This document shows positions 20,668 through 39,545 of a DNA stretch of 64,000 bases, piece after piece. A program made the position numbers and the translations under genes. Origin of the DNA: Parafrankia irregularis (GTDB lineage: Bacteria > Actinomycetota > Actinomycetes > Frankiales > Frankiaceae); NCBI RefSeq assembly GCF_001536285.1, contig NZ_FAOZ01000005.1, positions 299,813-363,812 on the forward strand, given 5' to 3'. Every line of letters begins with the position of its first letter. The first letter of the stretch is position 1. Under the pieces are notes generated by a model. The model was not told the origin of the DNA. It ran no database searches and was given only the letters and a program-made list of their open reading frames with translations.

Positions 20668-21249
20668 TCAGGGGCCCGCGGCCGCGCGCAGGCCCGGCGC
20701 GGCGGCGAGGTGCGGCCCGCGGGTGAGCCCGGCGGCGCCCAGCTCCGGGCCGGCGGCCCGGGACGACTCCGCCAGCGGGGCGCCTGCGGCCTCGGAGCTC
20801 TGCCCCGCGTCGGCACGAAGCGCCGCGATCGCCACCTCGAAGTCGGCGAGTGACTCGAAGGCCAGATAGACGGAGGCGAACCGAAGGTAGGCGACCTCGT
20901 CCAGCTCCCGGAGCGGGCCGAGTATCGCCCGGCCGACGTCCTCGGCAGCCACCTCCGCGGAGCCGGAGGAACGCACCGTCTCCTCGACCCGCTCGGCCAG
21001 CAGCGCGAGATCGTCCGACCGGACCGGGCGCCCCTGGCAGGCCTTGCGCACGCCCACGATCACCTTGGCCCGGCTGAACGGCTCGGTGGCACCGCTACGC
21101 TTGCGCACCCGCAACGAAGCTTCCTCCATCGTCGTGAACCGGCGCCCACACTCCGAGCACGCTCTGCGCCGCCGGATCGCGGCGCCTTCCTCGGCCTCCC
21201 TGCTGTCGACGACACGGCTGTCGGAATGGCGGCAGAAGGGACAGCGCAC
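20668..21249 (-). CDS. nrdR: Transcriptional repressor NrdR
   Basis: 193 aa. The N-terminal zinc ribbon [19 protein letters not shown] ... [13 protein letters not shown] (residues 2-40) binds DNA; the ATP-cone (about 47-140: [35 protein letters not shown]) senses ATP/dATP. NrdR represses ribonucleotide reductase genes when dATP is high. GTG 21249 is chosen because the family begins (M/V)RCPFC and GGAGAGGAG precedes it by about 6 nt. The tail after 150 is an Ala-rich extension longer than usual. Its own upstream gap carries three box-like dyads, so autoregulation together with nrdJ is likely. Confidence 0.96.
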
Positions 21250-21550
21250 GGCACACTCCTCTCCGCTCCGGGCGGCTTGGCTGCCACACGCGGAGCACGC
21301 CCCAGCAGGTGCCCACATGCCACCGGCCGACCACCCTCCGGGGGTGGCCAACTGACAACCTGTGGATATCGATGCACAACCTGTGGATGACTTACGGTGC
21401 TGTAACTACAAGATGTTGTGTTCACCGTAGCGCACGCACCCGACAGGTCCGACACCGCCCCTCCCCCTCCGGCGTGTCGCTGCCGCGGGGCCGCCGCCAC
21501 CTGATCGGCAGCCGATCCCGCCCGGTGGCCGGCCGTCGGGCGGGCCACCG
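21250..21550. other. nrdR control region
   Basis: 301 bp. It holds the three NrdR-box-like sites listed below; the remainder toward 21550 is GC-rich and featureless. Confidence 0.55.
21355..21421. promoter_or_regulatory. Three NrdR-box-like sites upstream of nrdR
   Basis: The 13-mer ACAACCTGTGGAT occurs at 21355-21367 and 21376-21388, exactly 21 bp apart. AACTACAAGATGTTGTGT at 21404-21421 (read as ACACAACATCTTGTAGTT on the minus strand) matches most of the published consensus acaCwAtATaTwGwgtgt. Centres are spaced about 21 and 31 bp, two and three helical turns, as expected for cooperative NrdR binding. TACGGTG (21393) and CACCGTA (21423) flank the third site as a perfect inverted repeat. 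The TGTGGAT cores also resemble DnaA boxes with one mismatch. Confidence 0.6.
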
Positions 21551-22558
21551 TCAGGGCAGGCAGAGCGGCTGGCCGGGAACGAGATCCGCGGTGGGCAGAT
21601 CGTTCAGGGACATGAGCCGACGAACAACCGCACGGGTGTCGGCCTCGGGGTCGATCCCGCGCGCCACCTCCCAGAGCGTCTCGCCCTGGCGCACCACGTG
21701 GACCTGACAGTCCACCGGGGTGGCCGTGAACGCCTGCGACGCGGTGACCAACGCCAGCGAGAGCACCAGCGCACCGGACAGGCACGCGAGCGCCGCGAAC
21801 ACGAGCCTGCCCCGCCGGGTCAGCCTCAGCGGCGGCTGTCGCCGCGGGCGGCGTCGCGAGCCCGGACGGAGCCGTTGCGCGCCCGGGGGCTGGGCTCGCG
21901 AGCTCGGGGACGAGCTGCGCCGCAGACTCAGCCACCGGCGCCGTGGTCTCGTCCGTAGCCTCTGGCCACCGGGCGGCGGCAACGCGTACCCGACGGCGCG
22001 GGCACGCCATTCCAGCCCGGGCATCTCGATGACCTGGGCCTCGCCGCAGTCGACCGCCGCCGAGGACGGCTGTGCGCCGCACGGGCCCGCCGCAGGTGAA
22101 GGACCACTGCCGAGACAACGAGAAGGGGCCGAGCGATGCGCCGGCCGCCGATCACCACCACGCACGGCCCTGCCCCGCACCGCCTGGCCGCGCACCACGA
22201 CCCCGCTGACCGCCGCACCACGGCGAGCACGAGGACGCGGACGCGCGCGACCACCATGGCCGCCCCCCGCCGGCGCACCTCCTCCGACGGCCGCGGACCG
22301 CCGCGCCGCGCCGACGCGGAACGCCCGACACCTAGGACCGGCTCCCCCGCCGAGCGCCCGGTCGCCATCCGCGATGTCGACATCGCCAGCAGCCACGCCA
22401 ACGTCGCCAGCGGCCGGCCGAAGGTCACGGTCGGCCGCATCGACATCGACAATGGCGATATCGACAATGGCAACGTCGGTCACGTCGGCATCAGCCAGAC
22501 CGGCGCGGGAAAGATCAGGGTCGGCCGGATCAGCGTTGGCCAGATCAGGGTCGGCCAT
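21551..22558 (-). CDS. SOS-linked LysM-domain membrane protein (Rv2719c-like)
   Basis: 335 aa. A basic segment and one membrane helix (LVFAALACLSGALVLSLALV, about residues 245-265) are followed by an extracytoplasmic LysM domain (VHVVRQGETLWEVARGIDP ... LPTADLVPGQPLCLP). In Mycobacterium the lexA-divergent LysM gene is DNA-damage induced and suppresses division; the same layout here supports that role. Unusually, residues 1-75 form an Asp/Ala/Val-rich repeated segment (ADPDLANADPADPDLSRAGL, then DVAIVDIAIVDVD) resembling pentapeptide repeats, and residues 75-240 are Arg/Gly/Pro-rich. ATG 22558 has an excellent GGGAGG five nt upstream, so the long N-terminus appears to be translated, although a later start would give a more typical protein. 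Confidence 0.75.
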   Translation of the reverse strand: MADPDLANADPADPDLSRAGLADADVTDVAIVDIAIVDVDAADRDLRPAAGDVGVAAGDVDIADGDRALGGGAGPRCRAFRVGAARRSAAVGGGAPAGGGHGGRARPRPRARRGAAVSGVVVRGQAVRGRAVRGGDRRPAHRSAPSRCLGSGPSPAAGPCGAQPSSAAVDCGEAQVIEMPGLEWRARAVGYALPPPGGQRLRTRPRRRWLSLRRSSSPSSRAQPPGAQRLRPGSRRRPRRQPPLRLTRRGRLVFAALACLSGALVLSLALVTASQAFTATPVDCQVHVVRQGETLWEVARGIDPEADTRAVVRRLMSLNDLPTADLVPGQPLCLP

Positions 22559-22889
22559 GTCAACCTCCCAGGCGCGAGCATCCGCCCGCTCGAACACCTG
22601 AGCGATTCTTACACGGCCGCCACGCACACTTCCCCCGACACGCTCGAACAGACGTTTGAGATTCGGCGACCGGCCGACTACCGTCAAGGACGATCAGTTG
22701 TGGACGATCGTGCGAGAAGAAGCGAGCACGGAGAATCCACCCGAACCGGTCAGAAGCTACTAATAGGACAAAGTGGTTGATCGACCGGGTGGCCCGCCGG
22801 CTGCGGAACCGCCGAGCCACCGGTCGCGGAGAAGCCGGTAGCGGGCGAAGCCCCGCCGCCGGATGCATCGACAGGGAGAGCGGTAGGCG
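22559..22889. other. Divergent SOS control region
   Basis: 331 bp between the LysM gene and lexA, with one LexA box. A TTGACG at 22682-22687 (minus strand) could be the -35 of the LysM gene, placing the LexA box over its -10 region. TACTAAT near 22753 may serve lexA. Confidence 0.5.
22644..22659. promoter_or_regulatory. LexA (SOS) box
   Basis: TCGAACAGACGTTTGA matches the actinobacterial/Gram-positive box TCGAAC-N4-GTTCGA with a single change. It can serve both divergent genes and would make lexA autoregulated. Confidence 0.8.
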
Positions 22890-23639
22890 ATGACCAGCCA
22901 GGCACGGGGTACCCGCCGAGGCGACGCCCGCGGCAATGTCCGGGATCTTCCCGACAGCCCCGCGGACGCCTCAGGCCTCACGCAACGACAGAAGGGGATT
23001 CTCGAGGTCATCCGCGCCGCGGTGGAGCAGCGCGGCTATCCGCCGAGCGTCCGCGAGATCGGCGAGGCTGTCGGTCTGACCAGCACCAGCAGCGTCGCGC
23101 ACCAACTCAAGGTGCTCCAGGAGAAGGGCTTCCTGCGGCGCGACCCGAACCGGCCGCGGGCCATGGAAGTGCTGCCGATCGGCGGCCAGAAGGCGGGCGC
23201 CCGGCTGCGCTCCGCCGGCGCCACGCCGGCGGAGGTGGGTGGTGCCGTCGCGGCCGAGGGCGGCACTCCGACCTACGTGCCCCTCATCGGGCGAATCGCG
23301 GCCGGTGGGCCGATCCTCGCCGAGCAGGCCGTCGAGGACGTCTACCCGCTCCCGCGGGAGATCGTCGGTGAGGGCACGCTGTTCCTGCTCAAGGTGGTCG
23401 GGCAGTCGATGATCAATGCCGCGATCTGCGATGGTGACTACGTCGTCGTCCGCCAGCAGCCGGTCGCCGACAACGGCGAGATCGTCGCGGCCATGATCGA
23501 CGGCGAGGCGACAGTCAAGCGCTTCCGCCAGCGCGACGGCCGGGTGTGGCTGGCGCCGGAGAACCCCGCGTTCTCCGACATCCCGGCCGAGGACGCGACC
23601 ATCCTCGGCCGGATCGTCGCCGTGATGCGCCGGGTCTGA
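22890..23639 (+). CDS. lexA: SOS repressor LexA
   Basis: 249 aa. A winged helix ([15 protein letters not shown] at 30-44; [20 protein letters not shown] at 51-70) binds SOS boxes. The latent peptidase domain has the self-cleavage site Ala138-Gly139 in GRIAAGG, nucleophile Ser173 in VVGQSMI, and general base Lys210 in ATVKRF, all intact. RecA filaments trigger cleavage after DNA damage. The protein has an N-terminal extension of about 28 residues and an inserted linker near 96-128 compared with E. coli (202 aa). ATG 22890 follows a GGGAGAGCGGTAGG stretch. A LexA box lies about 235 bp upstream, and the gene is convergent with hflX. Confidence 0.97.
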
Positions 23640-39529: not shown

Positions 39530-39545
39530 CCGAACATTCGTTCGA
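39530..39545. promoter_or_regulatory. LexA (SOS) box of recA
   Basis: CCGAACATTCGTTCGA matches TCGAAC-N4-GTTCGA with one change. It lies between the -10 and -35 of recA, where LexA would block polymerase. Confidence 0.85.

Follow-up and report, generated by a model that had tools for sequence, protein, structure and literature searches.

A probable SOS-controlled division inhibitor with a long cytosolic tail beside lexA in Parafrankia irregularis, and the uneven distribution of its parts among relatives

The gene at positions 21551 to 22558 of the window (the whole 64,000-nucleotide stretch of Parafrankia irregularis DNA that was analysed) is probably the form that the SOS-induced, single-pass membrane division inhibitors encoded beside lexA, of the YneA, ChiZ and DivS kind, take in Parafrankia. 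The probability of this reading is put at roughly three in four. By analogy with those proteins, the product most likely pauses cell division after DNA damage.

Gene, control region and protein layout

The sequence-only reading gave the open reading frame with correct coordinates, strand and frame. The gene order is nrdR, the tail-TM-LysM gene and lexA, the last two being divergently oriented. The features used below are as follows.

20668..21351, minus strand: nrdR (PF22811 and PF03477), start codon provisional
21551..22558, minus strand: SOS-linked tail-TM-LysM protein, open reading frame of 335 aa with an ATG start
21557..21706, minus strand: LysM domain, residues 285-334 (Pfam PF01476; pLDDT about 81-90)
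21725..21817, minus strand: membrane helix, residues 248-278 (AlphaFold2 helix)
21818..22015, minus strand: Arg/Pro-rich linker, residues 182-247, ending in PPLRLT, predicted to be disordered (charge; mostly low pLDDT)
22016..22039, minus strand: short conserved motif AQVIEMPG, residues 174-181, predicted to be cytosolic (sister-genus profile, top site in 6/6 Parafrankia tails)
22157..22225, minus strand: RGxAV pentad block, residues 112-134 (alignment, 6/6 genus members; lag 5, z 3.9)
22367..22549 (edges approximate), minus strand: Asp-rich pentad block, residues 4-64, 61 codons (insertion relative to 4/6 genus members; period 5 aa or 15 bp)
22564..22569, minus strand: ribosome-binding site GGGAGG, preceding the ATG at 22558
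22574..22589, minus strand: degraded SOS box 3, 5 mismatches in the window genome
22590..22605, minus strand: SOS box 2, 2 mismatches (match to consensus)
22606..22611, minus strand: possible -10 element TAAGAA just upstream of SOS box 2 (position conserved by eye)
22644..22659, plus strand: SOS box 1, 1 mismatch (match to consensus)
22890..23639, plus strand: lexA (TIGR00498, 251.7 bits)

SOS boxes were scored against the consensus TCGAACNNNNGTTCGA. Boxes 1 and 2 lie between the gene and lexA and are putative LexA sites by sequence match, and the proposed SOS link is thereby upheld. The window holds 8 matches with at most two mismatches, compared with a chance mean of 2.4; a further SOS-box-like site with one mismatch, CCGAACATTCGTTCGA, lies at 39530-39545. 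A consensus promoter scan returned no promoter on the minus strand and did not pick out TAAGAA.

The LysM half of the protein, also named in the sequence-only reading, matches PF01476 at 27.5 bits against a Pfam cut-off of 20.9. With one predicted helix followed by a LysM domain that would lie outside, the layout is that of the proposed class. Residues 191-251 before the helix contain 20 Arg and no acidic residue (net charge +20), which would place the N-terminus on the cytosolic side. Disorder is predicted for all 245 residues of the cytosolic tail, and in the AlphaFold2 model of the full protein residues 12-182 have a pLDDT below 50. The earlier suggestion of a novel cytosolic module is supported as to the cytosolic location, as indicated by this charge, and unsupported as to a folded module. 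The 335-residue protein has 50 arginines and no lysine, and lysine numbers 0 or 1 in 15 of the 16 proteins counted; without lysine, pupylation of the protein is unlikely.

Tail motif and LysM domain in relatives

Matches to the TM+LysM region occur in 41 of the 58 genomes searched, the window's own included. At 28 loci in the family and class, the start lies shortly after the last SOS box and the tail spans 10 to 252 residues. Where several candidates existed, these starts were chosen by hand, by taking the first one past the SOS boxes that had a strong ribosome site; the set leaves out L015, which meets a contig end, and L029, which has no strong ribosome site after its SOS boxes.

The tail motif and the LysM domain are both present in Frankia and Parafrankia. 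An 8-residue profile built from eight sister-genus genes ranks AQVIEMPG, or the corresponding site, highest in all six Parafrankia tails, with 7 to 27 of 1000 shuffles equally good, and places residue 7 first in 10/10 Frankia tails, of which only two have fewer than 50 of 1000 shuffles equally good. These figures overstate the case, since the species are related and the sequences had already been seen when the profile width and the regular expression were set. The same profile finds no motif in L020, a relative from genus g4. A 16-residue profile made from 10 Frankia tails has the Parafrankia motif as its best site in none of the six Parafrankia tails; its best site is no better than shuffles in four of them, and in the window genome and EUN1f it prefers the acidic block.

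The sister genus (g6), probably Pseudofrankia, yields no TM+LysM match in eight genomes. Behind the SOS boxes these genomes carry a lexA-divergent ORF of 110-117 residues without LysM, complete in seven of the eight (L098, L099, L100, L101, L102, L105 and L106). It starts at a GTG or ATG after the ribosome site GGAGGTTGGC, in one case with an extra T, and encodes the motif A[QD]VI[SAT]LP at residue 22, a juxtamembrane LRLTxRGR, a helix and then a stop. In the eighth genome (L097) the ORF runs off the contig and the motif is at residue 4. A juxtamembrane and helix profile from 22 relatives was run on a set of 16 sequences and matches the seven complete ORFs with E-values between 2.5e-5 and 1.7e-7, reversed copies scoring 1.1 or worse. 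A LysM domain hidden by a frameshift was considered and rejected: a 30-sequence TM+LysM profile run on six-frame ORFs of at least 40 aa at 14 lexA loci, some ending short of nrdR, found nothing up to E 10. Since relatives in other families have LysM, its absence in the sister genus is most simply a loss.

The opposite arrangement occurs in the genus that is presumably Protofrankia (g2), where all five genomes (L008-L012) have a 10-11-residue tail, no motif and an intact helix and LysM domain. With both kinds of loss in one family, the motif in the cytosol and the LysM domain outside may well be separable effectors or anchors. It is possible, although doubtful, that in Frankiaceae the part that stops division has moved to the cytosolic side or is shared with it, so that the motif [AT][QDRS][VI][VI]x[LMF] plus the helix would suffice and LysM would be dispensable. 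A separate case is L096 (g5), which has a normal Frankia start and motif and no recognisable helix or LysM before nrdR, and is probably a decayed copy.

Translation of the tail and origin of the acidic repeat

The window belongs to the genus of Parafrankia sp. EUN1f, P. colletiae, P. soli and Frankia sp. EI5c, and the start was compared in six genomes of that genus, the window's and five more. All six have the ribosome site GGGAGGTT and an ATG or GTG at the same place, and share a nearly invariant leader that ends in CCTGGGAGGTTG[AG]C and the start codon. The distances from start to helix are 735, 735, 756, 585, 528 and 564 nt, all divisible by three and free of stops. The sequence-only reading had a start behind a strong ribosome site about 240 residues before the helix; the reference juxtamembrane/helix segment begins at residue 246, giving a measured 245, and translation from ATG 22558 is supported.

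Substitution patterns were examined in two pairs of genomes. In the L006/L007 pair, dN/dS from residue 1 to the motif is 0.27, and 22 of the 38 changes upstream of the motif fall at third positions (p 0.0016). Shifting the forward frame by 1 or 2 raises the ratio to 1.24-2.36, although one reverse frame is also low, with 0.28 in residues 1-75. For the window and EUN1f, dN/dS of the upstream tail is 0.67 and third positions take 11 of 28 changes (p 0.31), and the ratio is lower in some wrong frames than in the true one; the coding signal is not clear, and dN/dS on this pair was set aside as uninformative for acidic-block translation. GC3 is 0.64 in residues 1-75 and 0.90 in TM+LysM. The case for translation of the acidic block consequently lies in the start and in the in-frame blocks downstream, both of which are conserved.

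Residues 1-67 contain 18 D/E and 4 R/K (net charge -14). At lag 5 their residue identity reaches 0.27, which residue shuffles put at z 3.0, and their residue-class identity has z 3.2. For residues 1-50, class identity at lag 10 has z 4.2; the DNA at lag 15 has z 3.4 against codon shuffles. Lag 7 is raised too (z 3.4). TRF reports 15-bp arrays of 3.1 copies at 22512-22557 and of 2.1 copies at 22441-22471. The near-pentapeptide repeat described from the sequence thus exceeds chance, with a period of 5 residues or 15 bp.

In the six-protein alignment, residues 4-64 form an in-frame insertion of 61 directly after Met-Ala-Asp. An orthologue comparison had been proposed for the N-terminal repeat; it finds the insertion shared with EUN1f and missing from the other four genus members. 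A search of the six genomes with residues 1-75 likewise gives good matches only in the window genome (1.5e-37) and EUN1f (3.8e-29), all other matches in those genomes having E 0.05 or worse. The block shows little constraint and evolves nearly neutrally. A dispersed repeat was considered and rejected: the genome holds no second full copy of the acidic-block DNA, the next best of 34 matches with E at most 1 being 35 bases long (E 5.7e-4).

Arrays of 15 bp with a score of at least 50 occur in 7 of the 28 relatives' tails, the window's included; the tail of Frankia sp. QA3 (L014) has PGLQS four times. Within the window, 8 of 10 such arrays lie outside the tail-TM-LysM gene. In another genus, about seven 15-bp units (RPATA-type pentads), apparently of independent origin, stand in the tail of L020, which is 222 residues long. 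The insertion in one lineage, the 15-bp period and the similar arrays in relatives' tails point to a lineage-specific repeat expansion, and the acidic pentads are probably a recent one, a disordered add-on that would at most tune the charge of the tail and would not form a folded domain.

The acidic block is followed by basic, low-complexity sequence and then by the second pentad block, RRGAAVSGVVVRGQAVRGRAVRG, which all six genus members retain. The four members that lack the acidic cap have a net tail charge of +28 to +30, whereas the tail carries +19 in the window genome and +16 in that of EUN1f. The cap would make a basic tail into an acid-base polyampholyte and, as a guess, could weaken its contact with anionic lipids or partners. 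SOS box 3 has 5 mismatches in the window genome, 3 in EUN1f and 0-1 in the other four species, and so has decayed in the same lineage that gained the acidic repeat. Loss of box quality and addition of acidic residues to a basic tail thus coincide there, and dose may have evolved together with tail charge.

Three other readings of the tail were weighed. Translation could begin at M179, inside AQVIEMPG, or nearby, which would leave a 67-residue ChiZ-like tail and turn the acidic repeat and the rest of the upstream part into an untranslated leader. M179 is indeed invariant in all six genus members, and the window pair gives the upstream part no clear coding signal; no consistent ribosome site precedes M179, however, whereas the one at 22564-22569 is conserved, the L006/L007 pair shows a coding signature upstream, and sister-genus and Frankia genes begin upstream of the same motif, beside their SOS boxes. 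A start at M179 is accordingly unlikely. Given the upstream start, the acidic pentads might instead form a right-handed pentapeptide-type beta-solenoid with a cytosolic role such as DNA mimicry, in line with the likeness to pentapeptide-repeat proteins seen in the sequence-only reading. The period of five with Asp and aliphatic residues is genuine, and a phmmer search of the PDB with residues 1-75 gives six weak matches (E 0.15-2.6), five of them (E 0.15 to 1.7) to beta1-type and Alr5209 chains, which look like designed and natural pentapeptide-repeat proteins. These matches are read as common period and composition. Pfam assigns residues 1-75 to no family up to E 10, although PF00805 matches 17 times elsewhere in the same genome; AlphaFold2 predicts no strand and no solenoid (pLDDT 61, pTM 0.20), a weak result given an alignment of two sequences and no positive control; and the block is present in only two of the six genomes, with little constraint. 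The likeness to PF00805 proteins is one of period. A solenoid is very improbable, and any other folded new module is likewise unsupported.

The broader alternative is that the long tail is a product of drift, 15-bp slippage in a GC-rich gene having given neutral disordered tails of any length with no functional part. The 10-252 aa range of tails among relatives, the arrays in a quarter of the 28 tails and the near-neutral acidic block all fit this view, which is a minority possibility. Against it, three genera retain the motif although its spacing from the start differs, in the sister genus the motif persists even in the absence of LysM, and the RGxAV block is kept in all six genus members.

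Comparison with known inhibitors and significance

On the preferred reading, that of an SOS-induced division inhibitor, DNA damage would free LexA from the SOS boxes, a short leader would be transcribed and translation would start at ATG 22558. The product would cross the membrane by a single helix, with a long disordered tail in the cytosol and the LysM domain outside. By analogy with YneA, the helix would probably dock on FtsW/FtsI, the septal wall machine, while LysM would probably bind nascent peptidoglycan, so that septation stalls. The tail itself would be a fast-evolving basic polyampholyte with one docking-type motif, AQVIEMPG.

By description, the layout is like that of ChiZ (Rv2719c) of Mycobacterium, which according to the available parts of PMC7355643 and PMC3989709 is DNA-damage induced and has a disordered Arg-rich cytosolic tail, one helix and an outer LysM domain. 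Its disordered tail is given as 64 residues with charge +10 (PMC7355643, in part), compared with 245 residues here, including the 61-residue acidic expansion and AQVIEMPG. YneA of Bacillus subtilis also lies beside lexA and has one helix and a LysM domain. Its helix is N-terminal, binds FtsW and is accompanied by a LysM domain needed for arrest, as far as the available part of PMC13396833 states, whereas here 245 residues precede the helix. The match to NCBIfam NF010723 (YneA equivalog) is 28.5 bits over residues 264-335, below the cut-off of 60, so the protein is no YneA equivalog. DivS of Corynebacterium glutamicum and SosA of Staphylococcus are likewise SOS-controlled, beside lexA and built on one helix. 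They are described as lacking LysM in the part of PMC6851548 available; by description they resemble the sister-genus gene in this respect, while the window protein has LysM. The available passages of PMC5768760 mention no LysM. The literature searched, mostly at title level and so no proof of absence, yielded no title on the tail-TM-LysM gene in Frankia and no Frankiaceae expression or division phenotype.

In the parts of the sources available, YneA is reported to need LysM (PMC13396833), whereas for ChiZ earlier work, as reported in PMC7355643, found tail and helix to be enough for filamentation. Natural variants behind the same SOS boxes in one family allow this disagreement to be tested, and the reciprocal loss of tail and motif versus LysM makes it testable which half stops division. 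The acidic repeat shows that a tail can grow by 15-bp units, a point of modest importance; the main value of the gene lies in the natural module series to which it belongs.
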